From positions 124,001 through 188,000 of the forward strand of contig NW_006763296.1 of NCBI RefSeq assembly GCF_000218685.1: a stretch of DNA of 64,000 nt. Direction: 5' to 3'. The DNA comes from Serpula lacrymans var. lacrymans S7.9. Lineage: Eukaryota > Basidiomycota > Agaricomycetes > Boletales > Serpulaceae. Positions 9,274 through 64,000 of this stretch are shown in pieces. The position numbers were made by a program, and so were the translations under genes. Positions within the stretch are counted from its first letter, which is position 1. Each line of letters opens with the position of its first letter. The notes below the pieces were generated by a model. That model was not told where the DNA came from and ran no database searches. It saw nothing but the letters and a program-made list of their open reading frames with translations.

Positions 9274-9473
9274 TGCTGCCAACAATGTTACGTATAAACG
9301 TATCAAGGCAATTGCCATAGAATAGAAACTAACTTTGAGTACGAACAGGCCTAGAAGTGCACATGTAGGTCGAAACAGTCAACCATGGCTCTGAGTAATG
9401 CAGTGGCCGTTTGGTGTCCAGAACCTATAGATCCTAACAAAGTGTGAGGCTGTTTAGACAGACTGCAATAACA

Positions 9474-9543
9474 AGAGGTCAGATGCTCGATTGCGGTATG
9501 GAAAGCACCGACGCCAGGAAAAATAAGTGTCTGATAGTAGCAG
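9474..9543 (-). pseudogene. HIS7 fragment (70 bp)
   Basis: The 70 bases match 6097-6166 of HIS7 with two differences seen by eye. They cover the start of HIS7 exon 2 and about 13 bases of the intron before it, so this is a copy of genomic DNA, not of mRNA. It starts where similarity between the two MFS 3' flanks stops (both copies share the flank up to CAATAACAA). It lies on the same strand as HIS7 and has no coding value. Confidence 0.85.
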
Positions 9544-15680: not shown

Positions 15681-17446
15681 TGTCGATGATGAGAACTGCT
15701 GTTAGAAAACCACACACAAAACAAACTAACACACAATCCTCCCAGATTCCACGGAACTTGTTTATGGGCTTTGCCTCCTAGAATAGTGGAGTGGTCTGGT
15801 TGTTCGTGGGGTGGTGCGTATAAAGATCCTTCAAAGTAAAACCCAGAGGTGTATGAGTGTGGGTTTTGAGGAGGAGGGATAGTTGAATTTATAGAAAGAT
15901 AGGGGGTTTGTGGCGAGTATAGACGAGCACTACCTTGCTAATCGTAGCACAAGGTAGGTTTGAGAACAACGAGGATGACGAGGTGACGAGGTTCCCAGTG
16001 ATAGCAGGCTCCTGACGCACAAACTGTAGTGCTCAGAAGGACTCTAATCGAAGGGGATGACAATCACTTTCAAAAGTGACGAGTGACGATGACAGCAGTT
16101 AACAGTGGTAGAAGTGGGAAGTGTTGTGACCACACTGGATCACAAGTAGCAGTAAGAAGTGGACTTAAGATTAGAGAAGAAGTCTGGAATCGAGTTCTTG
16201 TTTTTTTTTACAAGGTAAAATACAGGGGTTTATATAGTAAAAGAGAAGTAGGCTATGCATAGTATAGCTGTGCAAAAAGAATGAGAAAGAATATGAAGGA
16301 AGGAATGTACGCTGACGAATCCTGCGTAGGTAGTACAGGATAAGATTGTCAAAAAAAGAAAAGAAAGGGATAGAACAATAAATGCTGTGAGTAATGTCAC
16401 AGGTTTGTACAGCCATAAAGTAAAGTCCAATAGCAAAAAGAGAGCAGGAAAATCATGATGTCATGGGGAGATGCAGTAAAAAAAGGGCAAAGCAAAACAC
16501 TATCAGTATCAACACAGTTCCTTTATTGTCAGTCAGGCATTCTAAAAAAATATGTGTCCATAAAAATGATTCAAAAATCAAAAATAATCGCACTGTAAAT
16601 GAATGTTCTGCTGAAGAAAAAGAAACTGGAGCCACCGGTCCACCACCTAGTCCAAATCTGACAGTTCCATGGCCTTACCAATGGACTGGTTGTGTTGGAC
16701 CACCTGATCAAACGAGGGAGGGAGAGGAGTAGTTCCAATTTGGAACAAGTGAGTCCCAGGCAGCGTGTGGTAGGTGTAGCTGTAGCGAAGACGATGGACA
16801 AAAGATAAGTGTACCCAAGTGAATGGGACAGCAATGAACATGGGCGACGCAAGGGGATGAACCTTCTCCAGCTCAAAAATTACCCACCCACGCTCCAACC
16901 AGGCAAGACGAGCGACCGATGTTTTGATAGTATATGATGGCAGATCGACATCATGAAGATGGACCTGTTGCCCTATTTGGACCGGCCGCCGGGGCTTTGC
17001 TGATATCAGCAGTGGCACGTGGTAGTCAACGGATCAGCGACGGAAGCGGATAGGAAGTGGTGACATCAGAAATGGTGGGGGTGCAAAGAAGATGAGGAGG
17101 AGGAGGGTGGAGGTGACGAGGAGGTGAACTAAAATGGGGACCCAGAAACGACCGTCGGGTGAGAATAAAAAGGAGAGGAAGGGGCCCATGGTGGGGCTAG
17201 GCAAAGGAAGGGGAGTAAGGGAAACGACAAAAGCGAGGGCGCAATGCAATGTGTAGCCAGTGGCGACGCGAAAATTTGCCGAAATGCCGAAATGCGGAAA
17301 GTACCGGATGGAAAAGCAAAGGTGAGCGTGACTGGATTGCTATTCCACGTGGCACTGTGCCTGTGTGGCGCAAAGGCGAGTCTTTTTGAATATTCGCTTC
17401 GTTATTGACACCTGTCCATGCTACCAATCAACTTTGGTGCATGACA
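15681..17446 (-). mobile_element. LTR-like repeat, copy R2, with 4-bp target duplication
   Basis: 1,766-bp copy with TGTC/GACA ends. Immediate flanks are ACGG at 15677-15680 and ACGG at 17447-17450, a 4-bp target-site duplication, so R2 is one insertion event and not half of a paired element with R1. It interrupts the integrase-like gene. Its internal ORF is split into two frames (16647-17018 and 17034-17249), so it is broken here. Confidence 0.82.
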
Positions 17447-18000
17447 ACGGTTCCAGGCCCACATGAAGGAAAAGTTGGAACCACCTCCATTTGCTGTGCT
17501 GATCAAAACACCATATGTTATTCACACCTGCAGTCCAGAAGTAACTACACTTGAGATGGCAACTTTTACAAGCTGCAACTTCTTGATGATGATTCGCATG
17601 CATGTACTGTAGTATGAGAGGGCTATGAACGTAAAAAGAGGTCAGCATGCTTAGCATATATTATAAAGTTCATATTTACCAAGGCACCAGGATGTTTTCT
17701 TCATGACGCAGCGTGACCTTCATGTCATGGCATCCTTGCTGAGGAAACCGACTACGCACACGCTCAATAGCTAGTCCAATAGATTCAACGGTATGTGCTT
17801 GGCCCCGGGCACTCTTTGTTAGTTTTGGTGATTCTGCACCTAGTTGTGCTATCTATTTTCCCTTCTTTCTAAATCACTTTCCTCTTTATTCTTTTTGCTC
17901 TATTGTTCAGTATTCACTGAGCATTCTATGATTTCGCCTTTGTGGCTGATTTGTTTACCTTTGTTTACAAAACTTCGGACTAGTATTGCAGAGTCCAGTA
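17447..18000 (-). pseudogene. Integrase-like Agaricomycete gene, 5' fragment
   Basis: Continues the gene fragment at 15221-15680 beyond R2. On the minus strand it reads VNNIWCFDQHSKWRWFQLFLHVGLEP, ending exactly at the R2 boundary. Farther upstream I see short frames but no clear exon. The 5' end could not be placed. Confidence 0.45.
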
Positions 18001-18710
18001 TTCCTATTCTTTAGTTACTTATACTGGACTCTAGATACTGTACACATTCTGTACTCTCTGATAATACAGTTACTCATACTGGACTCTAGTTCTGTCCCTG
18101 TTAGCTCTCAGCAAGTGGCTAGACATTTCCCAGAAGTTCTCAATTGAACACTCTTGATGTCCCACAACATACACTTTTTCTTCAGTAAGGGCAACCTGTT
18201 GGAGATAGGAATTAATAGACACTTGTATCAGAGTATAGAGTATAGTTATTACTCACAAAAAGTTGTAGGTGTTGGTATCATAGTGTTCCTTTAGCTTAGA
18301 CACTATTTGAGGATTTGAATACCCGGCGGCAGCAAACTGCACTACCAAAGGACGTATAATGTCATTGAGGGCTATAAAATATGAGTTCCAAATCATTGTA
18401 TGTCAGGCTGAGAGAGAAAACTCACGAGGAGGTACTTTACTAGCAATTTGACCTTTAATGTTGGGCATGGAAGTGAATCTGTTAAGTGATGCATAAGTGA
18501 ACAAGCCCCCGCTGGCAATTACTTAGCCATTCATTTGATGCTTGCGTTCCATGAGCACTTATTACTCAAGCTGCCTCATGTTTTGCTCACATGTGACTTG
18601 GAGTTGTTGTGCCGCATATGTTCTAGAATTCTGCTGATGGAAGACCGTGTTAGCAGATTAGTGTGAGAGTATAAGATCATCCAGTAATCCTCACTGCAAA
18701 GGCCTGGCGA
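18001..18710. other. AT-rich spacer between R2 and R3
   Basis: No gene recognised. It may contain remaining 5' exons of the integrase-like gene on the minus strand, but no motif supports that. A near-repeated string around ATACTGGACTCTAG occurs twice (about 18026 and 18074). Confidence 0.35.
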
Positions 18711-20519
18711 TGTCATGCACCAAAGTTGATTGGTATCATGGACAGGTGTCAATAACGAAGCGAATATTCAAAAAGACTCGCCTTTGCGCCACACAGGCAC
18801 AGTGCCACGTGGAATAGTAATTAATATTGCCTGTTTTGAACTTGTGGCTGATCAGCACCACCTCTATTAGGCAATCCAGTCACACTCACCTTTGCTTTTC
18901 CATTCGGTACTTTCCGCATTTCGGCATTTTGGCAAATTTTTGCTTCACCACTGGCTACACATTGCATTGCGCCCTCGCTTTTGTCGTTTCCCTTACTCCC
19001 CTTCCTTTGCCTAGCCCCACCATGGGCCCCTTCCTCTCCTTTTTATTCTCACCTGACGGTCGTTTCTGGATCCCCATTCTAATCCACTTTTTCGTCACCT
19101 CCACCCTCCTCCTCCTCCTCTTATTTGCACCCCCACCATTTCTGATGTCACCACTTCCTATCCGCTTCCATCGCCGATCCGTAGACTACCACGTGCCACT
19201 GCTGATATCAGCAAAGCCCCGGCGGCCAGTCCAAATAGGGCAACAGGTCCATCTTCATGATGTCGATCTGCCATCATGTACTATCAAAACATCAGTCGCT
19301 CGTCTTGCCTGGTTGGAGCGTGGGTGGGTAGTTTTTGAGCTGGAGAAGGTTCATCCCCTTGCATCGCCCATGTTCATTGCTGTCCCATTCACTTGGGTAC
19401 ACTTATCTTTTGTCCATCGTCTTCGCTACAGCTACACCTATCACACGCTGCCTGGGACTCACTTGTTCCAAATTGGAACTACTCCTCTCCCTCCCTCGTT
19501 TGATCAGGTGGTCCAACACAACCAGTCTATTGGTAAGGCCATGGAACTGTCGGATTTGGACTAGGTGGTGGACTGGTGGCTCCAGTTTCTTTTTCTTCAG
19601 CAGAACATTCATTTACAGTGCGATTATTTTTGATTTTTGAATCATTTTTATGGACACATATTTTTTTAGAATGCCTGACTGACAATAAAGGGACTGTGTT
19701 GATACTGATAGTGTTTTGCCTTGCCCTTTTTTTACTGCATCTTCCCATGACATCATGATTTTCCTGCTCTCTTTTTGCTATTGGACTTTACTTTATGGCT
19801 GTACAAACCTGTGACATTACTCACAGCATTTATTGTTCTATCTCTTTCTTTTCCTTTTTGGACAATCTTATCCTGTACTACCTACGCAGGATTCGTCAGC
19901 ATACATTCCTTCCTTCATGTTCTTTCTCATTCTTTTTGCACAGCTATACTGTGTATAGCCTACTTTTCTTTTACTATATAAACCCCTGTATTTTACCTTG
20001 TAAAAAAACAACAAGAACTCCAATCCAGACTTCTTCTCTACTCTCAAGTTCACTACTCTGCTACTTGTGATCCAGTGTGGTCACAACACTTCCCACTTCT
20101 ACCACTGTCAACTGCTGTCATCGTCACTTCCCACTTTTGAAGTCATTGTCATCCCTTTCGATTAGAGTCCTTCTGAGCACTACAGTTTGTGCATCAGGAG
20201 CCTGCTATCACTGGGAACCTCGTCATATTGTCGTTCTCAAACCTACCTTGTGCTACGATTAGCAAGGTAGTGCTCGTCTATACTCGTCACAAAGCCCCTA
20301 TCCTTCTATAAATTCAACTATCCCTCCTCCTCAAAACCCACACTCATACACCTCTGGGTTTTACTTTGAAGGATCTTTATACGCACCACCCCACGAACAA
20401 CCAGACCACTCCACTGTTCTAGGAGGCAAAGCCCATAAACAAGTTCCGTGGAATCTGGGAGGATTGTGTGTTAGTTTGTTTTGTGTGTGGTTTTCTAACA
20501 ACAGTTCTCATCATTGACA
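18711..20519 (+). mobile_element. LTR-like repeat, copy R3 (inverted), with 4-bp target duplication
   Basis: 1,809-bp copy in plus orientation with TGTC at its start and GACA at its end. Flanks are GCGA at 18707-18710 and GCGA at 20520-20523, a 4-bp target duplication. A TATA-like motif (ACTATATAAACCCC) lies at about 19974, about 540 bp before the right end, where U3/R of an LTR would be expected. R2 and R3 form a large inverted repeat with a 1.26-kb spacer. I call it LTR-like because of the TG...CA ends, the TATA position and solo insertions. No internal retroelement region joined to it is present. Confidence 0.8.
18827..19564 (+). CDS. ORF inside repeat R3, unknown function
   Basis: Longest version (245 residues) of the ORF carried by this repeat family. 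It has a hydrophobic N-terminal part with likely membrane segments (around GYTLHCALAFVVS and ILIHFFVTSTLLLLLLF) and a polar C-terminal part ending SIGKAMELSDLD. It lies upstream of the TATA-like motif, i.e. in the U3-like part. No known domain recognised. It is open in R3, largely open in R1 and broken in R2. Confidence 0.45.
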   Translation: MPVLNLWLISTTSIRQSSHTHLCFSIRYFPHFGILANFCFTTGYTLHCALAFVVSLTPLPLPSPTMGPFLSFLFSPDGRFWIPILIHFFVTSTLLLLLLFAPPPFLMSPLPIRFHRRSVDYHVPLLISAKPRRPVQIGQQVHLHDVDLPSCTIKTSVARLAWLERGWVVFELEKVHPLASPMFIAVPFTWVHLSFVHRLRYSYTYHTLPGTHLFQIGTTPLPPSFDQVVQHNQSIGKAMELSDLD

Positions 20520-21476
20520 GCGACTCGGACATATTCAGAGCATTTGTTATCTTACAAGCATAGCAAGATAGCCTCTTTATGAAGAAACAAGGTGAGTATC
20601 AGTATAAGTACAACACTGCCCGAATCAATAACATAACTGACCAGCCTCTCATGTCTCAATTCACCCCAGCCAACAAAAGTCAACCAACCAAACAGTGCAA
20701 TCGGTGCAATACACATTTTGACTGCTCTGTTCCATTTTTTTTATGTAAAGGGTGTCAATAACTCTGGTCAGCACTGTTTCCTGGAATGTAATGAGCATTA
20801 CCATAATAAATGCGCAGCCATGCATGTCGACTCACATGCGGGTCATTTGGTTGAACCTATGCATGTTGGTGAGTGCTTGTTTCTGAGTTTATTTACCACA
20901 TCAACACACTTACATAGGTCACCTTTTGATTGCAGATTTTACTCAACAACACACGCCAAAACAGCCTGATGCTAACTTACGGGCCACTTCAAGTTCCATT
21001 TCAAGGCAAGCTTTGGTCAAGGCCTCCTCAGCAGCACAATGTGGAGGTAAGGTTTTGCTCATTGATAACTCATGATATGCTGACTCAGAACTTTGTCCCA
21101 CAGAAGATGTTCCTCCAAGGCAACATATAGGTTCATTACATGCCGCAATGTTTCCCCCCGCGCCTATGTCAATATTAGGAATGGGCTATTCCTCGAATCA
21201 TATTGTCCATGGCCAACATCGCAACAAAATGCTGGCGGCAACTATTGCACCCCAACGCCACGTCATTGTATGTGTCGCTCTACACCATCTCAAGGCGGGG
21301 GGGAAATCAGGAACAGAATTAGTGGGGGTGAGTATATTTTATAGCTATATTTGACGTTGATATGACATTGTTTACAGAATATTGAACGGGATATCAGTAT
21401 CCCCCTCACTATTACATGTGGTCAACTCTGTTTTCTCCTCATCAATAACCTGAAGCTTCTGTGGTTGGAGTGGTCC

Positions 21477-26830: not shown

Positions 26831-27365
26831 CTCAGTGATAAGTTATACTGAGGCATTAGTTTTGTCATGAACCAGTCCCTATATTCCCTTATCTAAATGG
26901 TTCTTATCTCTGTTCAAATTGCGCCTGGTAATAGGATCAGTAAGCTTGGTCTTCGAATTTTCTCATGAATTTAAAAGATAACTCAAAGTATCCTTATCAT
27001 CAAGCACTCGCTTCGAATGATATCGGTGACGGCACCATCAGCGACCAAACTTTGCAATTTACTCTCTGAATTTGATCAAGGTGTAAACTAGAGTAGTACT
27101 ACTGCTGCAGTAGTCGGGTCACCAGTATCGTAGGTCCTATACCACGCTCGAAGCATTGACGAACTGAGTATTTAGTAATCCAGCCTTAGACTCCGAGTTT
27201 TTGTTGAAGCAATTCGGTACCCATCATGGTCCCATGACGTTTTGTATACAAACCGCCTCAACTTTTGTCACCAGCGCCAAAGACTCGGCCTATAGTTGGA
27301 ATATATTACTTATCACGCCCTTGGTCTTTGTAGTCCGTCCCTCTATTACCACTTCACTCGCAACG
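26831..27365. promoter_or_regulatory. Duplicated MFS upstream region
   Basis: Parallels 6420-6959. The part from about 26960 is highly similar to the promoter of MFS copy 1, with a few indels. Likely the promoter of copy 2. Confidence 0.5.
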
Positions 27366-29677
27366 ATGAGGATAATTGACGACTCAGTCATTCCAGGTTC
27401 TGTGTATTTGGTCGATGTACAGGACAAGACGACAGTCACCCATGCTGCTGGCGATAGTACTATTGTCCTAAGTCCAGCGCCTTCCAACGATATCAACGAT
27501 CCATTAAACTGGTCTAAAGGACGAAAACTATTGCAAGTTATTTGTGTTATGATATGTGCGTCCCATGCCTCCCCGAATCTTCAACTGTACTCAAGCTACC
27601 GTAGATACTAGTGCTATCGGCATTGGTACCACCGTCCTGTACTCTATCTTGCAGCCGATTACAGATGATACTGGTATTCCACTTTCGACTTTGAATGCTG
27701 GGACAGGGTATAGTGCGTGCTATGATTCCTTGCCATCGTTAGCTTGTCAGTGCTGATTGTCACGCTTTACTAGCGTTCCTTCGTAAATATATATCAGTTT
27801 TCCTCGCGTCGACTCCACTTTCTAATGCTTTATTGTTATGTATAGTCCTGGGATGGGGCGCTCTGATTAACCAACCACTGGCTCTGACGTTTGGTAAACG
27901 TGGTATCTATTTACTTTCTGTTGTCGGGAACATTGTGAGCAGCGTGCGCTTCCCATAGTATCCGTCGATTGAAGCAACATCGTGCAGGCAATGTGTTTAT
28001 GGATACCATATATCAAGACAGAAAGTCAATGGTGAGCATTGCGCAAACTATCTCTCGTGCACTAACACTATCTCGAACTCTCCAGGATTGCGAGCAAAAT
28101 CATTCAAGGATATCTTTGCACGCCCGTTGAAAGTTTATGTGAAGTTAGCATCGCAGATGTCGTGAGTGTCATGCTAAAGCAGTCATGTGTTTTGGCTATA
28201 ATGATTCATGAGCTTTCATGAAGTTCTTCGCTCACGAACGTGGAACTTACATCGGGATTTACACCCTATTTCTGTTCGGGTAAGCATTCTTGATTGGTGA
28301 TCTCGATTGAATTCTCAACTTTAACACAAGGTCAAACTACTTTGCGCCTCTTATTGCTGGGGTAATTCGCTGTACTCCCTATCCTTTGCTTCATTGACAA
28401 ATCCTTTATAGTTTATCTATGATGGCCAAGGTTGGCACTGGGTCATGTACTGGGCCGCCATAATCAATGTAATGGCATTAATAGTACTATTTCTTTTCAT
28501 GGAAGAGGTAAGTTGTCTTGATATGCTTGCACACCAAGTCAATAATATTTGCAGACCAATTATGTCAGAAACAGTAGCGAAGCTTCCGAGGCACATGAGT
28601 TAGACGGCAGCACTGGCAGCATGGGGATCGATGAGGACAAACGGAATTTATCGTCTGGTGGACGTGAAACCCCTACAGAGCTTTCTGGAACTCCAAAAAC
28701 TTTCGTCGAACGCCTGGCTATATTTAACCAGCGGTACGCCACCAACAAAATGCTGGTCGTCATGATTTATCGCCCTCTCATCATGCTGCGTTTCCCTGTT
28801 GTCTTTTGGTAAGTGTTCCGTGAAGCTCCTTGAATATGCAACTTAGAGAATCATTTCAGGGCTGGTTTTCAATACGGGACGTGTTTAGTGTGGTACAACG
28901 TGCTCAACGCTACCGCATCGCTCATTCTCAGCGATGCTCCTTACAACTTTCGTGCGAGCTCAGTCGGTCTAACCTATATAGGACCGCTCGTGGGTATGTT
29001 CCTGGGGTACGTTCAACTCGCATCTTGCTTTATATCTTTTTTTACGTGCTGTCTTCTGGTTATAGCACGTTATATAGTGGTTGGATTGGTGATAAATTTG
29101 CTGTTCGACACGCTCGTCGAACAGGTGGTGTACGCGAGCCAGAACACCGTCTATGGCTTATGGTCGTATCACTATTTCTTTGTCCTAGCTCTCTTATACT
29201 ATGGGGAGTGGGTGCCTCAAGAAATATCCATTGGTCTGGCTTGGTTATTGGTATGGGTATGATCTCTTGTTCCACGGGTATTGGTTCTGCGCTTTCGATA
29301 GGATACGCCCTCGATTCATATAAAGACTTGAGTGGTGAGACCATGATGGCAGTGATCATAGTTCGAGTGAGTTTCGTACCCTTTTCTCTATTTCAAGTTT
29401 AACGTTTATTCTCCTTATAGAACACGCTATCTTTCGTAATTGTGCGTTACATTGCTTTTCGTGCGATTGTCTTACGCTCATTCTGTTTATCATAGGGCTA
29501 TGGGATCACACCATGGCTGCACATGGGCTATCAAAATACTTTCATTTCGGCAGCCTTTGTTGGGCTTGCCATTACGATGACTTTTATGATCGTCATTCGG
29601 TGGGGTAAAAGTTGGCGAATGGCGAGCCGTAAGATCTATTGGAGCTATGTCGCTGCTGGCTCTAGTATGGCGCATTA
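27366..29677 (+). CDS. MFS transporter, copy 2
   Basis: Nearly identical to 6960-9273 over exons and introns. It starts MRIIDDSVIPGSV and ends SSMAH, with the same intron positions and the same 21-nt exon (29421-29441). Differences seen are scattered single bases such as R to N in the central loop (SSEASEAHELDG region) and small indels in introns. No frame-breaking change in an exon was noticed, so both copies may work. The similarity in introns implies a recent duplication or gene conversion. Shared 3' flank continues to about 29890. Confidence 0.85.
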
Positions 29678-30113
29678 ATGCTGCCAACAATGTTACATAT
29701 AAACATGTCAAGACAATTGTCATAGAATAGAAACCCAACTTTGAATACGAACAGGCCTAGAAGTGCACATGTAGGTTGAAACAGCCAACCATGGCTCTGA
29801 ATAATGTAGTGGCCGTTTGGTGTCCATCACATTTAGAACCTATAGATCCTGACGAGGTGCAAGGCTGTTGAGACAGACTGCAATAACAAAGGGAAAAGTG
29901 TATTTTGTTCATTATATAGCACATTACCTAATGCTAGTATCTAGAGCTATCACACTCAATATACTCGTAGCCAGACAGTAACAAGCATATCCAGTGACAT
30001 TAAACTCGAAGCATGTTTAAGAAAGATAATTATGGGTCACAGGAAATGTTGCTACCAAATCCCTCAGCAAAAGCGCTCCAAACGAGTGTAGCGAAATAAT
30101 CAAAACGGTCCTC
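29678..30113. other. Spacer between MFS copy 2 and F-box gene
   Basis: The first ~210 bases match the 3' flank of MFS copy 1 (to CAATAACAA). The rest holds no recognised feature. The two flanking genes are convergent. Confidence 0.4.
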
Positions 30114-39332: not shown

Positions 39333-39758
39333 GATTATTGAGTGCTGTAGTTCTTTGATCTTAAGAAATGTCATATATCGTTTATGCTTTCTGTTTCTAC
39401 AACATCCATGCGATGGGGGCATATCAGAACGTATTCCCAAATATTTCTCCTTATTCTGATCATGCAATAGCTTGATAACACCCTCATTCAACAGATGATC
39501 GTAGTCACATAGCTTACACTGATACACTCCCCCTATTCGTCCATCTCCAATGTATTTGCTACAACTAGTTCGACATGACAAAGTTATATACAGGAGCAAA
39601 GGATAGTATGTAGCTTACTAGCTCTATGATTACACCCTAACGTACACCACGAAGATTCTAGATATATATTAGAGCATGTCAAGGAAATAGAAAAAAAGAA
39701 CAAAATCAGAAGAAACAATGAGAATGAGAGGAGATAAAAATTATGACCAGACTCGGGT
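39333..39758. other. Convergent 3' spacer
   Basis: No gene. Part of the inverted duplication: the TF-proximal bases (about 39600-39758) are similar to the region past the stop of the second TF copy (about 62507-62700). Confidence 0.4.
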
Positions 39759-42700
39759 TCAACGCCGGTGCTCGTTTATATTCTGCCGACCAGCTCCATC
39801 GTGATGCACCAAACCAGACACACTAGTGATATACGTTCCCCAGTCATCCAACCTAAGGCACGCCGAATCAACATCAGCTCAAATCACGCACATCACAATT
39901 CCACTCACTCAAAGCCAGTAGGCGCATTCGACCACATCGCCATCGTATCATCATCATCATCCATAACCGAATTAGCAGCATGCACACCTGCATGCCCTAA
40001 CATCCCCACATGCTGCTGTGTCGCAGCGCTTGTACCGCCCATCAACGCTTGCATAGATGGTCCAGGGCCTCCAAACTGGCCCGTTGCTCCAGCCTGCGCA
40101 GACGAAAATGGGGAAGCATACTGGTTCGCCATCTGATCATAGAACAGCTCGTCCATCGTGTACGCCGGCGCTGACACATCACGGTATGGTCCCACCCCAG
40201 CGTTTGCCAATACCCCGGACGATCTAGGCTGAGTGGGCGCAGAGGGCGTGCCCATGGGAAACCACATGCCAGCCGACGCATCGAGAGGGTTCGCCCCGCT
40301 TGGATTGGCAAAGTTCACTTGACCATGGAGAGGCAGCCGACCGAGGTCGTCACTATACACAGGCAAGTTAAACACAGCTGCTGGATTGGGCGGTGTCGGT
40401 GCTGGCTGCAGCTGCTGTTTTTGTTGCTGTTGTGGTGGCTGAATATCATGGGATACACGGCGCGAGCCTGCAATATTTCGAGGAACCTCTGGAACGACAG
40501 CCGCGGAGCTCGAGCTAGAGGGAGCAGCGGATATAGGACTATCGGAATCGCGTTCACGTTTGTTGCCGCCGGTGGGACTTGGTTGTGGGAGAGGGAGGTC
40601 TCCGACAGAAGCAAGTTCGTAGAGTATATCCCTGTGAATGTTCTTAGCCTCATAAAACCCAAGGAGTGATATTGCACGGGACAAACCACAGACGACCAGC
40701 CGAATGCCAACTGTTATAACATAGAACATAAGTAAAATAATGGTGAAAGGTACTCAGATTTCTCGTACCGTCGTTCGCAAACTCGTAACACTTGCATACA
40801 CTTATGCACGTCGGACATCTCCTTAATTGGATCCGTGGCAAGACCAGACCGTTTACCGCCCCAAATATTGAGAAGGAGTACGATACCTGCAGTAAAAGCG
40901 GACATCTTGCACCCAAAGAAGACGTATCAATTTCATACAGTACACACAAACCCTCTTTCACAAGTCACGCACCTGTACATAAGGGCTCGCAACCCCAGAT
41001 CGTTTGCGTAGTATATCAATCACATGACTACACGACCGTGCGGCGTTCGTGCAGATAGCAAGGGAAGGGAAGGATAGCGGAGAGGGTTTGCGAGGGGAGG
41101 GGATAAAGGGCCGGTGAATGAGGATCTGAAGGTGATAGTACGTAGCGTAGAGGCCCGCAGACTGCATGAAGAAACGGTCGTCTTCACGGTTTGGATCCCA
41201 TCTGACTGCAACAGAGAAGGAGCGAAACTGAGGCATTGTTCAAATTTGAGTAAACGAACTTACGATGATCTGGGACTGCATCGATCCATTTGTTCAAGGC
41301 AGAGTCAAGCTCAGCAACAATATGCTGCTCCCACTGCTGTCCGACAAAACCAAGGAGGACTTTGGACTTATTGATAGAGTACTGGATTTGAAATGAGCAT
41401 CGCTAACTACTATAACATAAGGGCAAAATCTCATACGATTGTTCGCAAAGCGAAAGCGAGAATTTGATGGAGCTTCAACAGGTTGACGAAATATGAGACG
41501 GCTGATGGTTTGTCTGATGGTTGTTTAAATGCCTTTTCAGGGTCGGATGTCTCCCAATACTCGTCGTCGCATTCGATAGGCAACTCGAGATCGATGCTGC
41601 AGTTGAAAAACCAGTAAGCATAGAAACACTGAAAGATAGCTGGCAGAAAAAACGTACTCTTCATCTTGAATAGCACACGGTCGGCCCAACGAAGAACTAC
41701 TTATTCTGTCCAGAGTAACGAGAACCCTGCATGATAAACAAAGTAAAGTGTAAGCACGCCCCAGGTCTGGTACCTGTTATGAAGCAAGAAAACAACCGTA
41801 CCAGAACGCGCGCTTCCACAGTTCGTCCTCCATCGTTGGTTTTGGGTTATAAACTTTGCGTCTATGAGCGCCTACATCCTGAGCCAGACGCACTCCTATC
41901 CCAACTATGGTCCAGCAAGCCTGCGGGGCAGAAGAGCCTTGCAAGAATATGACAGATAGCTAAAGAGCAAGGGATTAACGATATTGCCACAACATCCACA
42001 TTATCGTAACCAAGACTTACGCAGTACACCTGTAGATCATACAAACAAGGAGGGCCAAGGAGAGTTTTCCTGACCATCTGAACTTGCTCAAAATATTTCC
42101 AACCGCATGAATGTTCAGAAGTAGTATTTTCCAGGAAGACGCGTGGGTCATCTGACCATCGCGAGCCTACCGCACAGACAAGCAGATAGACGGCACCGAA
42201 GGAGGAGTCACGCAGGTGGAGACCTTCCGCGATGCTACTCTCGAAACTCGGTCGGTGCAGGAAAGGATACAGCGAGTTGATATAGTTAAAATAAAGATCC
42301 ACCAACGCCAATCCCAAATCATCGTCTGGAAACACATAATTCGGATCCACTATAGTCTTACCAGCCAGCTCCCACTGAATGGCGGGAGACAAAATCAAAG
42401 CAAAAATTAATCATCCACGCATCGCAGAGACAGGATGATAGAGAGAGTCGCGCATATACTCACTGGAAAACAACTATCAAACTCGGGGCGCTTGCGCACC
42501 CAAAAATTCTCGGAATCTTCATCGCCAGTGTACTCTTTCTTAAGATCAATGGCTTTCTGAATGAACATGATCCCGCTCGATTTCCCAAAAAACCTGTAAT
42601 GCATTGGGTTAATGGCCATGCTTCGGATACTCTCTGTTAAGCGGAGCTGAATCAACTCCTCGTCGTCACTGGGGACCAGATCTTCCGCGGGAGTGGCAGC

Positions 42701-43481
42701 GCCTGTGACCGTCGAGGTGGAAGGAGCGCCCATAATATGGCTAGCTGTCATCGTAGACGCACCCTGGCCAGCCTTGGCCCATTTCTCCCTATCGATGTGA
42801 CCGCCCCCGAGCTCCTGAGTGAAATCTGCGTCTGGGCAGACCTACAATGTAGCAGTCAGTCATGATCCCAAAGAAAGTTAGAGGGGGATGGCAAACGGCG
42901 GTCGTTGTCTGTACCTTCTGCAGCAATTTCTCCATCTTCTCGAGGCGGTTTTCGAGGCTTTCGACATACCTGATAACACGAACCGTGACACACTTGATCA
43001 GGCACTACATATACGCGCATAGATATACACGACACTGACCCTTTAGGAGGACCTCGCTTCTGCCACAGAGAAGGACATCGAGCAAGAAAAAGATCCAATG
43101 AAAATCCTTCGATAATCCAGTCAGAGGGTAGAGGGTATTCACATACCTTTGCAGCCTCGACATAAGTGCACTCAAAGCTATATGCTATGCAATTCGAGCA
43201 TCGATTGCCAGGCATTTGGCTACCATCGCCTTTACATTCCGCCGAGGAAATCATTAGGTCCCAACTTGGCAAGCACAAAGAGTAGACTCACAGCGAACTG
43301 GAGAAAGAAACGAGTGGCAATCAGCTAAGGCGAACGCAAAGCCTCAATTTGAAAGTAAAAAGGACAGACTCTTTTTGCGACGGCATATGTCACATGCGCG
43401 CTGGATCCTCCTCTTCTTTGAGCCAGGCATGGAAATGGAGCCTTGCTCGTTGTCGTTATAGTCATCCTCAGCCGACGACAT
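39759..43481 (-). CDS. Zn2Cys6 transcription factor, copy 1
   Basis: Paralogue of 58744-62506, in opposite orientation, with the same exon plan. The zinc cluster reads CDICRRKK-IRC-DGSQMPGNRCSNCIAYSFEC when the exons 43481-43370, 43297-43292 (6 nt) and 43229 onward are joined; the spacing CX2CX6CX9CX2CX6C is correct. A coiled-coil-like dimerisation stretch follows (VESLENRLEKMEKLLQK). The middle is the fungal-specific TF domain (LYPFLHRPSF, AHRRKVYNPKPTMEDELWKRAFW, GRPCAIQDEDIDLELP). The C-terminus is Gln/Pro/Ser-rich and acidic, as in activation regions, ending about HHDGAGRQNINEHRR. No broken frame was found. Likely a nuclear DNA-binding regulator; targets unknown. Confidence 0.88.
43292..43297 (-). 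other. 6-nt exon in TF copy 1
   Basis: TTCGCT on the minus strand between CTCCAG and GTGAGT. It links AAG-A to GC-GAT and so encodes Ile-Arg and the first base of the third zinc-binding Cys. The same six bases and splice signals occur in copy 2 at 58948-58953. Confidence 0.85.
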
Positions 43482-44060
43482 GGCTCTTGGCGTGGACCTT
43501 GTTAAGATATAGTAAGGCAGCTAGAAACAAGGCAGGTTTGTAGGTGAGATATGAGACGTAGATGGGAGAGGGGTGCTTGAAGGGAGTCAGAAATGAGCTC
43601 TCAGCCCTTCCGTCGGTACTAAGGTAGATACAACTTGCCGATCAGACGCAAGTTTCGGCACCGCCTCTTCCAGCTGGGATTTGTTCCACGCGCGCAGGCC
43701 GCAGGCTTACGCAGCAGTTCGCCCTTGTTTCATACCTTCATCTCAATGTCCACGGCACATTGCTATCCTCCCGTAACTTTTTAAATTCTCCAACTACTAT
43801 ATGGCCTCCACCATGCCAAAAGTAACGCGCTCAGGCTGCTATAAACCATCTTGTCTACTATTCTCGCTCGGATGATCTCTGATTACAATGCCAGATATCG
43901 GACCATAGGGCGGCTCTGGAATCAGATAATCACGTCGAGTCAGTCAGAACCATACGTTCGAGTCAAAATTCTCCTCGCTTTCGTACAACTCAATGGAAAG
44001 AACACATGTCAAGCAGTGCTGCGATCACTCAGATGTCAATGATTGGAAGCAGGTGTTGGT
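43482..44060. promoter_or_regulatory. TF copy 1 upstream region, duplicated
   Basis: Inverted match to 58190-58743, upstream of TF copy 2. Blocks around CTCAGCCCTTCCGTCG and the 43850-44040 stretch (SDYNARYRTIG in one frame) recur with differences. The paired region probably contains the promoter of both TF copies. Confidence 0.6.
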
Positions 44061-44848: not shown

Positions 44849-47683
44849 ATGCCCCTCACCCAAAGCGGAGCTAATCCAGAGGCCAATATCCGTACTTACA
44901 ACGATGTCACTGGCAATCAAGTCATCAACGCTACAAACATCACAAACGTTCACACTGGTTCTGGGGACGACACCATCCTAGCGATGTTGAAACCAGTCGA
45001 TCACAACCGCCACTACGTCCAACCATGCATGGATGGCACCCGAAAGGACATCTTCACGGAAATTCAACACTGGCTCGACCAACCGGCGGACGCACAGGAA
45101 GCAAAGAATATCCTTTGGATCACAGGAAGCCCAGGAGCTGGGAAATCAGCTATCGCATCTAGCTTGATCTCGAAGCTTAGAGCCGATCATCGTCTCGGTG
45201 GATCATTCACTTTTCGTAGAGGCGATACGGTATTGAGCGACCCTGCGGCGCTTTGGCGAACTGTCGCCTTCGATCTTGCTCGTTTCGATCCGGATGCTGC
45301 ATCCACCGTTGTCACCGCTCTCAAGGAGGGAAGCGTGGATCCCCAAAGACCTGATATTGCAGCTCATTTCGACATCCTTATCAAGGAGTCATTGGAGCAG
45401 ATGAACGAAAAATTGGTAGCCCAGGAAAATCCGAGGTACGTGTCTACTTTGGAGTTTATCAGCAACGTGTTGATTTGTGTACATGTCACTGTAGGTATCC
45501 TGTAGTGGTCGTAGATGCTTTGGACGAGTGTGGCGATTCGTATCAAAACCCACAACGTAAAACTCTTCTCGATACCCTTACGCGATGGTCTAAGCTCCCG
45601 AAGACAATCAAGTTGATAATCACAGGCAGAGACGACCGTTTACCCGAGCCCTTTCGTCAAGCCTGCCAAAAAATTGTCCTCCCAACAGCAGATAAGGTGA
45701 CGCCTGCAGCATCAAAAGACATTCAGACGTTCTTTGAAAGCCGTTTCAAGGAACCGACGACCAACATTCCATCGTTGGCCCAAGCCGGTTGGCCAGCACC
45801 ATATGACATTCAATGACTCAAAGCTCGTGCTGCAGGCCTTTTCATATGGATCTAGGCTTGTTTCAAGGTCTGGAAATCTTATCAGGATCTGGGACATCTT
45901 TTCTGGTCAGCTGGTAGCTGGTCCGTTTGGCGATATAGATGTGCATGATTCTTCCAGTATTGCATTGTCACTTGATGGGTCTGTGGTCGCTGTGGCTGGC
46001 AGGACATTCCTGGGCGGTCTGACGATGACGGTTTGGAATATTTCCACTGCGCAGCCTGCGAAAAGCATAGACAAAAGCTTCGATCTTGATACATTAACTA
46101 CCTTCACTGCGTTCTCTCTAGATCTATCAAAGTTTGGTTCGAACTTGGATGGCAAAACCATCGATATCTGGGACGTTGCTTCTGGGCAACTAGTAACTAC
46201 TACATCCCAACTTGAAGGCCATAGTGATGATATCAGATCTAGTGTCTTCTCATCGGATGGATCCAAAATTGCTTCAGCGTCTGAAGAACATGACTATCAG
46301 GATTTGGGATACTGTTTCTGGTCAGCTACTAGCTAGCCCATTTGAAGGCCACTATGCTTCTCTAAAATGTGTTGCATTTTCACGAGATGGATCTAGGGTT
46401 GCTTCAGGTTCATGGGATGAGACTGTCAGGATATGAGATTGTGCATCTGACCGACTGGCTAATAATTCATTTAAAGGGGGTGTAGTTCCTCAATCCTTTC
46501 AATTGCATTCTCACCAGATGGGCGCAGGATGGCTTCAGGCTCTATTGATAGTTCCATTGAGGTATGGGATGTCACCTCTGGTGAAATGGTAGTTGGCCCA
46601 TTTCCAGGAGCATACCGATTCAGAGGCTGTTACATCTGTTATGGTCTCGCCAGATGGATCCTACGACAACACGGTCAGGATATGGGATGCTGCCATTGGT
46701 TAGCTGGTAGCCGGCCCATTTAAAGGCAACACTCAAGGTGTTCATTTTGTTTCATTCTTACCGGATGGATCAAAGGTTACTTCGGTTTCAGATAATACTG
46801 CCATCAGGGTCTGGGACATTTCTGGAAAACTAGTGGCTGGGCCCCTTCAAATGCTACACAGCTTTATCCATCACATCTGTTGCCTTCTCCCGAGATGGAT
46901 CCAAGGTTGTTTCTGGGTCTACTGGTCAAGGTGCTACAATCTGGGATATTGCAGCTGCTCAGGTCATCGGTGGCCCGTACGACCATGGTAATAAGATCAA
47001 CTCTGTTGCATTCTCACCGGATGGATGCAAACTCACTGTTGCTTCTGCGACTATCAGGATCTGGGATGTTGATCCCTGCCAACCGGTTGGTGGTCTATTT
47101 CAGGGCCACACTGATATTATTACATCTGTTGCATTCTCACCAGATGGATCCAAAGTCGTTTCAGGCTCTGATGATCAGACAGTCAGGATTTGGGGTGTTC
47201 TGTCTGGTCAGCCAGTGGCTAGTTCATTCCATGGCCATAGTAAGGGCATCTCAACTGTTGTATTCTCACCAGATGGGTCCAAGGTTGCTTCGGCGTCCAA
47301 CAATCATACTACCAGGATCTGGGATGTTGCCTCTGGCCAGCTTGTGGCAGGCCTTCTTGGGGGTCATCATGACACTACAAATTTGACTACATATCCTGCA
47401 TTATCACCGGCACCAGATATATTGAATGTGTCTACTTTAGACACAAAGACAATTTATGCAAGTCCTTATTCCGATGATTCTGGATGGATTTGCTTTGGTG
47501 ATGCAACAAAAGAAAAACTCTTATACTGGATACCACCAGGCCCGCCTTAACGGATGGTGTGACTTCCGTACTTCTCGAGTTATCGGGGTACCTGAATTGC
47601 GTGTATTAGACGAGGACTTTGAGCATGGTACGAACTGGACATTATGCCTCACTGGCACAGGAAATGATGGCAAGTCTGTTTGA
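44849..47683 (+). pseudogene. NACHT-WD40 (NLR-like) gene, decayed
   Basis: STAND-class protein, related in design to fungal incompatibility and immune NLRs. Starting at MPLTQSGANP, a short Asn/Thr/Gln-rich N-terminus (YNDVTGNQVINATNITNV) precedes the linker and the NACHT ATPase: Walker A GSPGAGKSA near residue 95 and, after a 59-bp intron (45436-45494), Walker B VVVVDALDEC. A sensor-like GRDDRLPEPF follows. The frame then stops at 45816; the AAGLFIW motif right after is out of frame and the usual helical region is absent, leading straight into WD40 repeats. WD repeats (FSPDGSKV, IWDVASGQLV) run to 47400 but switch frame several times. The end (YWIPPGPP, ELRVLDEDFEHGTNW) is typical. Frame shifts could partly be introns, but stops inside repeats support a pseudogene. 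Confidence 0.75.
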
Positions 47684-58189: not shown

Positions 58190-58743
58190 GCTTCCAAGTC
58201 ATCTGAATGATCGCAGCAGTGTTTGACGTGTGTTCTTTCCATTGAGTTGTACGAAACCGAGGTGGGTTTGACTCGAACGTACGGTTCTGACTGACTCGAC
58301 GTGAGTTATCCGATTCCTAAGCAGTCCTATAGTCCGATATCTGGTATTGTAATCCGAGATTATCCGAGCCAAAATAGTAGACATAACGGTTTATAGCAGT
58401 CTGAGCGCGTTACTTTTGGGATGGTGGAGTCCGTATAGTAGCTGGAGAGTATAATAAGACACGGGAGGAGGGCAGTGCGCGATAGACGTTGAGGAAGACA
58501 AAGAGGGAGGTGCTACGTAAGTCTGCGGCCAGCGTGAGTGGAGAACGAATCCCAGCTGAAGAGGCGGTGCCGAAACTTGCGTCTGATCGGCAGGCTGTAT
58601 CTGTCCCCCCCGACGGAAGGGCTGAGAGCTCATGTCTGATTCCCTTAAAGCATCTCTCCCATCTTCATCTCATATCTCACATACAAGTCTGGCTTGTCTC
58701 TAGCAGCCGTAACTATATCTTAACAAGGTCTACGCCAGGAGCG
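58190..58743. promoter_or_regulatory. TF copy 2 upstream region, duplicated
   Basis: Inverted counterpart of 43482-44060. Frames on the minus strand at 58199-58384 match those at 43851-44042 on the plus strand. Probable shared promoter of the TF copies. Confidence 0.6.
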
Positions 58744-61700
58744 ATGTCGTCGGCTGAGGACGACTATAACGACAATGAGCAAGGCTCCATTTCCATGCCT
58801 GGCTCAAAGAAGAGGAGGATCCAGCGCGCATGTGACATATGCCGTCGCAAAAAGAGTCTGTCCTTTCTACTTTCAAATGGAGGCTTTGCGCCCGCTTTTC
58901 GCTGTCGTTGAAAGCTGATTGGTCACTCCATTGCTTTTTTGCTCCAGTTCGCTGTGGGTCTGTTCTTTGTGCTTACCAAATTGGGAACCTAATGATTGGC
59001 GGAAATGTGAAGGCGATGGCAGCCAAATGCCAGGCGATCGATGCTCGAATTGCATAGCGTATAACTTTGAGTGTACTTACATCCAGGCTGCAAAGGTATG
59101 TGAACGCCCTATGCCCTCTGGACTGGATTATCGAAGGATTTTCATGGGATCTTTTTCTTCTGGCTCGATGTCCTTCTCTGTGGCAGAAGCGAGGTCCTCC
59201 TAAAGGGTCAGTGTCGTGTGTGTCTGTGCGCGTGTATGTAGTGCCTGATCGAGCGTGTCACGGTTCGTGTTATCAGGTATGTCGAAAGCCTCGAAAACCG
59301 CCTCGAGAAGATGGAGAAATTGCTGCAGAAGGTACAGACAACGACCGCCGTTTGCCATCCCCCTCTAGCTTTCTTTGGGATCATGACTGACTGCTACATT
59401 GTAGGTCTGCCCAGACGCAGATTTCACTCAGGAGCTCGGGGGCGGTCACATCGATAGGGAGAAATGGGCCAAGGCTGGCCAGGGTGCGTCTACGATGACA
59501 GCTAGCCATATTATGGGCGCTCCTTCCACCTCGACGGTCACAAACGCCGCCACTCCCGCGGAAGATCTGGACCCCAGCGACGACGAGGAATTGATTCAGC
59601 TCCGCTTGACGGAGAGTATTCGAAAAATGGCCATTAACCCATTGCACTACCGGTTCTTTGGCAAGTCGAGTGGGTTCATGCTCATCAAGAAGGCGATCGA
59701 TCTCAAGAAAGAGTACACCGGCGATGAAGATTCCAAGGAGAAGTTCTGGGTGCGGAAACGCCCCGAGTTTAATAGTTCTTTTCCGGTGAGTATATGCGCG
59801 ATTTCCTGTTTCATTTTGTTTCTGTGATGCGTGGATGATTAATTTTTTACTTTGGTTTTGCCTTCCGCCGTTCAGTGGGAGCTGGCTGGTAAGGATATAG
59901 TGGATCCGAATTATGTGTTTCCGGACGATGATTTGGGGCTGGCGTTGGTGGACCTCTATTTCACCCATATCAACTTGCTGTATCCTTTCTTGCACCGACC
60001 GAGTTTCGAGCGTAGCGTCGCGGAAGGTCTCCACCTGCGTGACTCCTCCTTCGGTGCCGTCTATCTGGTGGTCTGTGCGGTAGGCTCACGCTGGTCAGAT
60101 GACCCGCGAGTTTTCCTGGAAGGTACTACTTCTGAACATTCATGCGGTTGGAAATATTTTGAGCAAGTTCAGATGGTCAGGAAAACGCTCCTTGGCCCGC
60201 CTTGCTTGTTTGATCTACAGGTGTACTGCGTGAGTCTTGGTTGGGATAAGGTGGATGGTGTGAGGATGGCGTTAATGCTTTGATGTTAGCTATCTGTCAT
60301 TTTCTTGCAAGGTTCTTCTGCCCCGCAGGCTTGCTGGACTATAGTTGGGATAGGAGTGCGTCTGGCTCAGGATGTAGGCGCTCATAGGCGTTCGGTATAT
60401 AACCCAAAACCGACGATGGAGGATGAACTGTGGAAGCGCGCATTCTGGTACGGTTGTTTTCTTGCTTTTTTCCAGAAATCAGGTCGTGGGCGTGCTTACA
60501 CTTTACCTTGTTTGTCGTCCAGGGTTCTCGTTAGTCTGGACAGAACAATCAGTTCTACGTTGGGTCGACCGTGTGCTATTCAAGATGAGGAGTACGTGTT
60601 GTCTGACAGCTATCTTTCAGTGTTTCAATGCTTACTGGTTTTTCAACTGCAGCATCGATCTCGAGCTGCCTATAGAGTGCGACGACGAGTATTGGGAGAC
60701 ATCCGATCCTGAAAAGGCATTTAAACAACCACCAGACAAGCCATCGGTAGTCTCGTGTTTCGTCAACCTGTTGAAGCTCCATCAAATTCTCGCCTTCGCT
60801 TTGCGAACGATTGTACGAGATCTCCCGTTTATGTTATAGTTGTCAGTGATGCTCATTGACGCGTTCCGCAATCCAGTATTCTATCAATAAGTCTAAGGTC
60901 CTCCTTGGTTTTGTAGGGCAGCAATGGGAGCAGCATATTGTTGCTGAGCTTGACTCTGCCTTGAATAAATGGATCGATGCAGTCCCAGATCATCGTAAGT
61001 TCATTTACTCAAATTTGAACAATGCCTCAATTTCGCTCCTTCTCTGTTGCAGTCAGATGGGATCCAAACCGTGAAGACGATCGTTTCTTCATGCAGTCTG
61101 CGTGCCTCTACTCCATGTACTACCACCTTCAGATCCTCATTCACCGGCCCTTCATTCCCTCCCCTCGCAAACCCTCCCCACTATCCTTCCCTTCCCTGGC
61201 TATCTGCACGAACGCTGCACGGTCGTGTAGTCATGTGATTGATATACTACGCAAACGATCTGGGGTTGCGATTCCTTATGTACAGGTGCGTACCGTGCGA
61301 AAGAGGGCTTGTGTTTACTTTATCTTTGTGACATTGATGCGTTTTTTCGGGGTGCAAGATATCCGCTTTTACTGCAGGTATCGTGCTTCTTCTCAATATT
61401 TGGGGCGGTAAACGGTCTGGTCTTGCTACGTATCCGAAAAAGGAGATGTCCGACGTGCACAAGTGTATGCAAGTGTTGCGAGTTTGCGAACGACGGTATG
61501 GGATCTCCGAATGCCTGTGACCAACATTTTACTTATGCTCTATGTGACAACAGATGGCATTCGGCTGGTCGTCTGTGGTTCGTACCGTGCAATATGACTA
61601 CTTGGGTTTTATGAGGCTAAGAACATTCACAGGGACGTACTCTATGAACTTGCTTCCGTCGGAGACCTTCCTCTCCCACAACCAAGCCCCACCGGCGGCA

Positions 61701-62506
61701 ATAAACGCGAACGTGATTCTGATAGTCCTATATCCGCTGCTCCCTCTAGCTCGAGTTCCGCGGCTGTCGTCCCAGAGGTTCCTCGAAATATCGCAGGCTC
61801 GCGCCGCGTATCCCATGATATTCAGCCGCCACAGCCCCAGCAGCAGCAACAACAACAACATCAACAGCAGCTGCAGCAGCCACCGACGCCGAACCCAGCA
61901 GCTTTATTTAACTTGCCCGTGTATAGTGATGACCTCGGCCGGCTGCCTCTCCATGGTCAAGTGGACTTTGCCAGTCCGAGCGGGGCGGCGTCTCTCGATG
62001 CGTCGGCGGGTATGTGGTTCCCCATGGGTGCGGCTTCTGCGCCTACTCATCCTAGTGTGTCGCCGGATGTATTGACGAATGCTGGGTTGGGACCATATCG
62101 TGATGTATCAGCGCCGACGTACACGATGGATGAGCTGTTCTATGATCAGATGGCGAACCAGTTTGCTTCCCCATTTTCGTCTGCGGCAACGGACCAGTTT
62201 GGAGGACCTGGGCCATCTATGCAGGCATTGATGGGTGGTACCAACCCTGCGGCACAGCAACATGTGGGGATGTTAGGGCATGCAGGTGTGCATGCTACTA
62301 ACTCGGTTATGGATGATGATACGATGGCGATGTGGTCGAATGCGCCTACTGGCTTTGAGTGAGTGGCATTGTGACGTGTGCAATTTGAGCTGATGTTGGT
62401 TCTGTGTCTTAGGTTGGATGACTGGGGAACGTATATAACGAGCGTGTCTGGTTTGGTGCATCACGATGGGGCTGGTAGGCAGGATGTAAGCGAGCACCAA
62501 CATTGA
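58744..62506 (+). CDS. Zn2Cys6 transcription factor, copy 2
   Basis: Sixteen exons join in frame to 909 residues: 58744-58855, 58948-58953, 59013-59095, 59187-59206, 59277-59331, 59405-59785, 59876-60229, 60290-60447, 60523-60591, 60653-60812, 60877-60994, 61053-61285, 61359-61495, 61554-61577, 61633-62358 and 62413-62506. The zinc cluster is complete (CX2CX6CX9CX2CX6C). The dimer stretch (ENRLEKMEKLLQK) is next, then the fungal-specific TF domain (FFGKSSGFMLIKKAID, LHRPSF, HRRSVYNPKPTMEDELWKRAFW, GRPCAIQDEDIDLELP). The C-terminus has a poly-Gln run (QQQQQQHQQQLQQ) and an activation-type tail ending QDVSEHQH. Exons of 6, 20 and 24 nt are required for the frame. Paralogue of 39759-43481. Confidence 0.9.
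58948..58953 (+). other. 6-nt exon in TF copy 2
   Basis: TTCGCT between GCTCCAG and GTGGGT. Supplies Ile, Arg and the first base of the third zinc-ligand Cys. Same as 43292-43297. Confidence 0.85.
61554..61577 (+). other. 24-nt exon in TF copy 2
   Basis: Between ACAACAG and GTTCGT. Encodes WHSAGRL plus parts of the flanking codons. The frame fails without it. Confidence 0.7.
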
Positions 62507-64000
62507 ACTCGAGTCTGGTCACAATCTTCATCTCCTCTCAATCTCCTTGTTTCTTCTGATTTTGTTTTTCTGTTCTAATTCCCTCACATGTCCTGTTATA
62601 TATCTAGAATCTTCGTGGTGTACGTTAGGGTGTAATCATAGAGGTACTAAGCTACATATTCCTTGCTCTCGATGCTCTGTATATAACTTTGTCACGTCGA
62701 ACTAACTGTAGCAAATACACTCGAGATGAACGAAGTTAGGGTCGATTGACATGGAAAGACATGCACGTATGGAGGTGGCACAGGGCAGCATTTTAGCATT
62801 GACAAGGTAGCGGCTCGCTACCTCGGAGTACGGTAAGCTTCAAGTTAGCGCCACCCGTTGTTGAGCCGAGTCACGGTAGGCAAGAATATTATTAGCGTCT
62901 CGTAAACTGCACTGTCATTTGCACCAATTCCTCACGAGACTCTTATGAGGCCTCAGGCTCACCGTCCCCAACGTGGATAATGGATATTATAGTACTGTCA
63001 CATCACTAGACATACATGGCACCGTTCACTATGGCTCAAGCGTTGCATCAAGGTCACATCAAGGCGAATCAAGTTCATCGATATGATCAAGGCATTGAAG
63101 ACCCACCGCAGGAAACGAATCCGGCCACATCTGCCATTCAACCTGTGATGATATGGAACAGCCCTTACTGGCTACACTGGCAACAACACTAGACGACGAT
63201 CGCGCCGATTCCGAGTTACCTGTTGCTATCGTCCAGTATCCGAGGACGGGCAACGCGATGGGCTGAGAAAAAAAAGTCGACGGTCGATCCATGTATTCTA
63301 TGGTTCATTTCCAACCTTACGTTCCCATTTTCGTTCCTCGTATCGGATGTGGATCCGTCATCTCGCGTTGGACGAGTTTTCTTAACCGGTGCGGGTATCA
63401 CCACACTTCAAACACAATTGACGATGGATCTCATTCTCATGGCACTGTCTGCATAAATGCCACGTGCTCTCGACTCAAGACGTTGTCTGTCGCATACGCC
63501 AGTCACTTTCGGTCCAATACAGGCGATCAATCAATAATCTGATCACCTACCTTTCCGTGCGGACTATTCTTCCATAGAGAAAAATTCAAAGCGAAAGGCA
63601 AGTCTGGTGACGCTGGACGTGTAATCAGCTCGGACATCGATACCCATCTGTACGGGCTGGTTGCAATATGCGTTACTCTTGCAGTTCCCTGATACTTCTG
63701 GAAATTTGTGGAATTCACTGGTGGGCTTGGTGTGATAACATCATTGGCAGCCCCTCCTCATCAACGTCTCCAAATCTTTTAGTTGTGGGACTATCAAGGA
63801 AATTGAAGACCTTCCAGTAAATCCAGAAGCAGAGAGGGGAGTCTTGCGTGATGGTTATTATCATCGGCCCCGTTGATATATCCTGAAATCTCAGCAAATG
63901 TGGAGATTAGGTCCAACTGAAGTGTCATATCAGCGTTATCGTACTACAGCCGCTGAGATGACTCACTCATCCATACTTTACTTCCCCACAGGATTGACAA
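62507..64000. other. Right end of window
   Basis: The first ~200 bases resemble the 3' flank of TF copy 1. From 63.5 kb the minus strand has coding-like pieces (for example MTLQLDLISTFAEISGYING near 63920, and SELITRPASPDLPFALNF near 63600), so a minus-strand gene entering from the right is possible. No product recognised. Confidence 0.35.

Follow-up and report, generated by a model that had tools for sequence, protein, structure and literature searches.

The window analysed here is a stretch of 64,000 nt from the genome of Serpula lacrymans var. lacrymans S7.9. It contains an inverted duplicate of about 4.5 kb, with copy 1 on the minus strand (39531..44035, read 44035-39531) and copy 2 on the plus strand (58200-62741). 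The two copies are 87.9% identical and carry one transcription factor gene each. When a microexon of 6 nt was included and only GT-AG introns were used, both genes could be read as 16 exons with intact open reading frames of 909 aa (copy 2) and 907 aa (copy 1). Exons 2, 4 and 14 have a length of 6, 20 and 24 nt, respectively.

In copy 2, exon 1 (58744..58855, plus strand) encodes MSS..RACDICRRKK with the cysteines 1 and 2 of a zinc cluster and a Lys-Lys pair, and ends with the first base (A) of an Ile codon. It is followed by intron 1 (58856..58947; 92 nt; GTCTGT..CTCCAG) with a branch-like CTGAT 30 nt from the 3' end, by the microexon TTCGCT (58948..58953) and by intron 2 (58954..59012; 59 nt; GTGGGT..GTGAAG) with a branch-like CTAAT. 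TTCGCT is therefore flanked by CTCCAG upstream and GTGGGT downstream. It provides the remainder of the Ile codon, an Arg and the first base (T) of the Cys3 codon, which is completed by the GC at the start of exon 3 (59013..59095); this exon continues with DGSQMPGDRCSNCIAYNFECTYIQAAK and holds Cys4 to Cys6. Exon 4 (59187..59206) is another microexon of 20 nt (KRGPPKG), and exons 5-16 (59277..62506) encode a coiled-coil-like stretch, the Fungal_trans domain (PF04082) and the C-terminus, with exon 14 as the 24-nt exon.

In copy 1, on the minus strand, the splice model places exon 1 at 43370..43481, intron 1 at 43298..43369 (72 nt; GTCTGT..CTCCAG; CTGAT), the microexon TTCGCT at 43292..43297 (43297-43292), with CTCCAG before and GTGAGT after it, intron 2 at 43230..43291 (62 nt; GTGAGT..GTAAAG; CTAAT) and exon 3 at 43147..43229. 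Exons 4-16 (39759..43059) complete the gene to the intact 907-aa frame. The 20-nt exon 4 has the same sequence in both copies (59187-59206 on the plus strand, 43059-43040 on the minus strand).

Between the copies, dN was 0.037 and dS 0.280 (whole-gene dN/dS about 0.13), and from these values both look to be under purifying selection. A tract covering intron 5 and the adjoining exons (59282-59542, corresponding to 42964-42704) is nearly identical, with one mismatch, in a pair that is otherwise 88% identical, and it may have arisen by gene conversion. Copy 1 is adjoined at 44850-46500 by what appears by eye to be an NLR-type gene, with a P-loop region followed by WD-like repeats and apparent breaks. 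Long direct and inverted repeats of 91-96% identity (6527-9478 and 26956-29892; 13414-20522) are perhaps mobile elements.

Two public protein models of S. lacrymans correspond to these genes, and both lack the microexon. P0001 (strain S7.9, 871 aa) agrees with copy 2 at all 865 aligned residues and starts at a Met inside exon 3 (MPGDRC). P0002 (strain S7.3) is identical to copy 1 at 904 of the 905 residues that could be aligned and has the form expected when the microexon is skipped; it also contains 18 additional residues after exon 4, at the place of intron 4.

A 6-nt exon in the zinc cluster

Exon 1 ends with CGC AAA AAG A and exon 3 starts with GC GAT GGC. The inclusion of TTCGCT gives C-D-I-C-R-R-K-K-I-R-C-D-G, ending in K-K-I-R-C-D-G. 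The initial annotation had stated that the six bases spell K-I-R-C with their neighbours and that the Cys3 codon is split as T/GC, and the exon joins of both copies confirmed this. Its prediction for skipping was borne out as well: the junction then reads K-K-S-D-G, which keeps the frame, removes two residues and changes Cys3 to Ser (A/GC). In transcripts, the inclusion junction would be GCAAAAAGA/TTCGCT/GCGATGG and the skip junction GCAAAAAGA/GCGATGG, and the copies can be distinguished by exon-3 bases (GCGATGGCAGCC in copy 2, GCGATGGTAGCC in copy 1).

With the microexon, the cluster is CX2CX6CX9CX2CX6C, which fits the Zn(II)2Cys6 motif CX2CX6CX5-12CX2CX6-8C, and the Pfam model Zn_clus (PF00172) scores 40.2 bits at a cut-off of 21. 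Without it the motif is lost, and Pfam still reports 28.2 bits; a Pfam match alone is therefore no proof of an intact cluster. The Fungal_trans domain (PF04082) was found at residues 245-499 with 110.8 bits. At 6 nt, TTCGCT falls within the definition of a microexon as an internal exon of 3-30 nt, and in both copies it lies between GT-AG introns, each with one branch-like CTRAY motif 21-30 nt from the acceptor. Exact CTCCAGTTCGCTGTGRG sites occur only twice in the 42.6-Mb genome, in copies 1 and 2. The names Ace3/Roc1, Xlr2, Asg1 and acu-15 appear among the matches as transferred labels and do not settle the identity of the factor; in the accessible part of the Ace3/Roc1 paper no sequence for comparison was found.

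We listed the splice paths between exon 1 and exon 3 that use GT-AG introns of at least 45 nt. No path with one intron gave CX2CX6C in either copy. With two introns, 14 paths were obtained in copy 2 and 11 in copy 1. Among these, KKIRCDGSQMPG is reached by a single path that both copies share, the one through the 6-nt exon. An exon of 10 nt joined to an acceptor inside exon 3 is formally open in both copies (KKIRCGQ.. / KKIRCDQ..), and these alternatives were set aside since most of the listed relatives keep the D-G-x-x residues as in the 6-nt path. The claim that the cluster can be completed only with TTCGCT thus held, with the 10-nt path as a formal alternative: no single GT-AG intron with another donor or acceptor supplied the cysteine without the six bases.

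How often such an exon arises by chance was estimated from 20,000 shuffles of the intron block, in which the dinucleotides were kept and the exon 1 donor and exon 3 acceptor were fixed. For copy 2, 3.7% of the shuffles held any GT-AG microexon restoring ..CDG and 0.18% held one whose splice sites fit the consensus; for copy 1 the values were 4.7% and 0.23%. A consensus-site microexon that also gave [IVLTM][RK]C appeared in 1 of the 20,000 shuffles for each copy. This level speaks against TTCGCT being a chance reading, in which the real product begins at the MPG in exon 3, as the public model of copy 2 does, or the cluster has been decaying after the duplication. Both copies are intact with a dN/dS of about 0.13, and exon 1 with Cys1 and Cys2 is conserved in most of the listed relatives, so that a chance origin is hardly credible.

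The initial annotation had also pointed to the identity of the six bases and their splice signals in copies whose flanking introns differ. TTCGCT is indeed identical, but the introns differ only moderately (86.1% and 82.8% identity over aligned columns, plus indels). With introns this similar in a pair that is 88% identical, the argument from two copies is weak. Six matching bases are unremarkable, as 0.88^6 is 0.46 and nearly half of such stretches would match, and we do not take this identity as proof of selection. The support for a function, which had been drawn from the two copies, comes from the orthologues instead.

The other zinc clusters of this genome were inspected at the corresponding place. 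Of 10 further matches outside the two copies, 8 run through the split place in one frame (2 of the 8 with a stop codon). Five loci that were read directly (L009, L016, L019, L020 and L023) are uninterrupted between Cys2 and Cys3. L009 (G000:C6, 684498-684629), a paralogue that has diverged to about 50% identity in its Fungal_trans part, has its whole cluster in one exon (KTKC); not every member of the family therefore has the microexon split. L023 can be read well if an exon of 15 nt, CATGCACTTTCCTAG (L023:1459-1473; G000:C1, near 820474-820488), encoding TCTFLG, is placed between an intron of 61 nt and one of 49 nt, and its sixth cysteine seems to lie on this microexon. In the similar L020 the corresponding stretch continues without a second intron.

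The exon in homologous proteins

Three protein searches returned 1770, 249 and 332 homologues, of which 120 were listed from each. The 177 different proteins among these were sorted according to the letters at their N-terminus. The included form, KK-x-RC with D or N after it, was present in 96 of the 177 (counting P0072 with CRKRKIRC), and these models alone leave the presence of the flanking introns in those species unproven. The skip form was found in 56 (52 with S-D, 3 with G-D and 1 with S-E), and these readings fit exon 1 joined directly to exon 3, from A/GC or G/GC. In six proteins IRC and G-D-G are separated by 15-19 in-frame residues, which an unremoved intron 2 would explain. Judged from the translations, an NNA/G acceptor is compatible with the residue before G-D-G in 6 of 6, and a GTRNG donor with the residue that follows IRC in 5 of 6; the sixth (Arg) fits only if its codon is AGR. 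The remaining listed homologues comprise 11 that begin at the exon-3 Met, 4 without a usable N-terminus and 4 with other junctions. The initial annotation had suggested a search of homologues for the same exon, and the protein readings expected of it were found in them.

Two models from Psilocybe cubensis, 98-99% identical over their aligned parts, differ at this place exactly by IRC versus S, and probably represent one gene. They differ elsewhere too, where one model lacks a stretch of the middle domain. A FastTree tree was built from the part downstream of the cluster of the listed homologues. The included and skip labels required 38 changes on it, at least 36 of them forced by the starred branches. 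Shuffled labels needed 48.9 changes on average and none of 500 shuffles was as low as 38, showing some clustering, so that the labels are not pure noise. Since the skip form is scattered among close relatives and both forms occur in the two models of what is probably one Psilocybe cubensis gene, the 56 skip models look like products of faulty annotation and were not accepted as evidence of skipping.

Among the species with skip or read-through readings are Exidia (Auriculariales) and Coniferiporia (Hymenochaetales). The listed proteins that we take to come from Cantharellales, Sebacinales, Dacrymycetes and Thelephorales are all of the included kind, from which introns in these groups are not deducible. 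Viral and prokaryote sequence collections, screened for fungal DNA, gave no relatives. The protein readings suggest that the microexon is common to many Agaricomycetes and has often been missed by annotators. The 6-nt exon is absent from about one in three of the public models listed, so that the records of many orthologues lack a zinc ligand or a portion of the binding domain; studies of expression or binding that rest on such models would be led astray.

Taken together, TTCGCT is most probably (about 0.86 by our estimate) a genuine exon of 6 nt, normally included in the mRNA of a Zn(II)2Cys6-Fungal_trans factor that is conserved in mushroom-forming fungi.

Splicing and possible regulation

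The flanking introns are short (59-92 nt) and have their own donor, branch-site motif and acceptor, and they would probably be recognised by intron definition. The two ends of an exon so small cannot be occupied simultaneously in splicing, and for this reason a removal of the introns one after the other is probable. Intron 1, with a long pyrimidine tract, has an acceptor that looks stronger than that of intron 2, which in copy 2 is a weak-looking AAG acceptor without a pyrimidine tract. Intron 1 would perhaps leave first, joining the microexon to exon 1 while the normal donor of intron 2 remains. The mature mRNA, in which we expect the exon to be normally included in S. lacrymans, would then encode K-K-I-R-C, the counterpart of K-K-L-K-C in Gal4, and supply the third zinc-ligand cysteine for a cluster that presumably binds DNA. 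In the Gal4 structures (PDB 3coq, 1d66, 7uik) KKLKC aligns to KKIRC of the Serpula factor, and the loop between Cys3 and Cys4 is shorter than in the Serpula factor. The microexon offers a very short and widely common test exon for how a fungal spliceosome deals with exons too small for two-end recognition.

Fifteen of the listed proteins carry the source tag 'lgn' alone. We infer that they are mRNA-derived, since they are intronless reading frames of 812-1071 aa on contigs of 2.8-5.7 kb. Eight of the 15 include the residues, none has the skip form and 7 begin at the exon-3 Met (P0009, P0010, P0017, P0079, P0093, P0102 and P0116). These counts argue against skipping and, less strongly, for inclusion of a microexon. 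A skip or read-through relative within a tree distance of 0.5 was found for 2 of the 8 included proteins (P0095 and P0137), and the nearest relative of P0095 is the skip-form model P0108; the genes behind the other 6 may lack these introns.

The initial annotation had proposed that regulated skipping could make a non-binding form, and this found no support. In such a reading, clean skipping in some conditions would give an in-frame Cys3-to-Ser protein that dimerises or activates without binding DNA. Points in its favour are that skipping keeps the frame and alters the zinc site only, and that in Trichoderma a zinc-cluster microexon of Xlr2 is regulated by glucose, according to the available part of the paper (PMC11121469). 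However, the skip form is present in 0 of the 15 mRNA-like proteins, the 56 skip models resemble annotation errors, and the same source likewise describes no Xlr2 reads joining exon 1 to exon 3. The intron needed for skipping would also have 157 nt in copy 2 and 140 nt in copy 1, compared with 54-92 nt in the 30 introns modelled for the two copies. We consider regulated skipping very improbable.

Regulation could also operate alongside normal inclusion, with intron 1 or intron 2 retained or another 5' end used. Such mRNAs would give no full-length protein, or one that begins at the exon-3 Met (MPG..) and lacks an intact binding domain, comparable to Xlr2-beta. If intron 1 is retained, the frame meets a stop in both copies; retained intron 2 stops it or leaves the frame of exon 3. 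The weak-looking AAG acceptor of intron 2 and the start at the exon-3 Met of 7 of the 15 mRNA-like proteins and of 4 other models, P0001 included, are in line with this, as is the retention of Xlr2 intron 1 in some Trichoderma reesei transcripts, reported in the accessible text of that study (PMC11121469). A skip or read-through relative within 0.5 was found for 4 of the 7 exon-3 starters versus 2 of the 8 included proteins, but this difference is small and depends on the cut-off (Fisher p 0.31, 0.13, 0.13, 0.04 and 0.28 at 0.5, 0.6, 0.7, 0.8 and 1.0, a range of 0.04-0.31). The start choice of the ORF caller and incomplete contigs would give the same picture, and the seven exon-3 starts may derive from either of these as well as from retained introns or other 5' ends. 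Regulation by retention or a different 5' end is thus possible but doubtful.

In its broadest form, the idea is that a frame-neutral microexon of 6 nt, placed in a zinc-ligand codon and maintained over much of the evolution of Agaricomycetes, acts as an on/off switch of DNA binding by skipping or by retention of a flanking intron. We regard such a switch as unlikely. If it existed, particular nutritional or developmental conditions would turn the factor into a partner that does not bind DNA, and zinc clusters would have been made splice switches several times independently, at Cys3 here, at PCRRCE in Xlr2 and possibly at Cys6 in the other S. lacrymans gene. The microexon also allows one to ask whether zinc clusters repeatedly serve as splice switches.

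Comparison with known systems

Short exons in zinc-cluster genes have been described before. The CeGAL study, in its available part, attributes most Fungal_trans proteins without a binding domain to annotation errors and describes a short exon of two amino acids in the Zn2C6 domain of Rhizopus delemar I1CF81 (PMC10141177). That case, from another phylum, concerns a single gene and was found by manual inspection; the affected cysteine and a wide conservation are not given in the accessible text. No passage on short exons was found in the available part of PMC8396895. A prior naming of the 6-nt exon of the Serpula zinc cluster was not found in the open-access literature searched, and an earlier listing in Coprinopsis cinerea is possible. 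A 2025 long-read reannotation of Coprinopsis cinerea reportedly lists microexons.

Exons of 6 bp are known from Basidiomycota, as is the Serpula microexon: they occur in Phanerochaete P450 genes (PMC1184071) and as exon 2 of DAO1 in Rhodosporidium, where the structure was derived from a cDNA comparison (PMC4624585). In contrast to the Serpula gene these are enzyme genes, and a split metal-ligand codon is not reported in the available parts of these papers.

The closest parallel is Xlr2 of Trichoderma, as described in the available part of PMC11121469. There, a 20-nt microexon (TCCTTGTCGTCGTTGTGAAG) in the zinc cluster encodes PCRRCE with two cysteines; by RNA-seq it is included without glucose and not with glucose, no exon 1-exon 3 reads are described, and most Trichoderma gene models in the paper's list miss it. 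Like the Serpula exon, it is a microexon placed inside the zinc cluster of a factor of the Zn2Cys6-Fungal_trans type, was missed by annotation and is conserved in its clade. The Xlr2 exon has 20 nt, is not frame-neutral and belongs to an ascomycete, whereas the Serpula exon has 6 nt, is frame-neutral and wide in Agaricomycetes; the inclusion of the former depends on glucose, and any regulation of the latter would be conjectural. The Serpula microexon does not carry the PCRRCE cysteines but lies between Cys2 and Cys3, and because of these different positions the two microexons are probably independent. In conclusion, microexons in zinc clusters and 6-bp exons in basidiomycetes are already known, and the Serpula case is a widely shared and unusually placed one.
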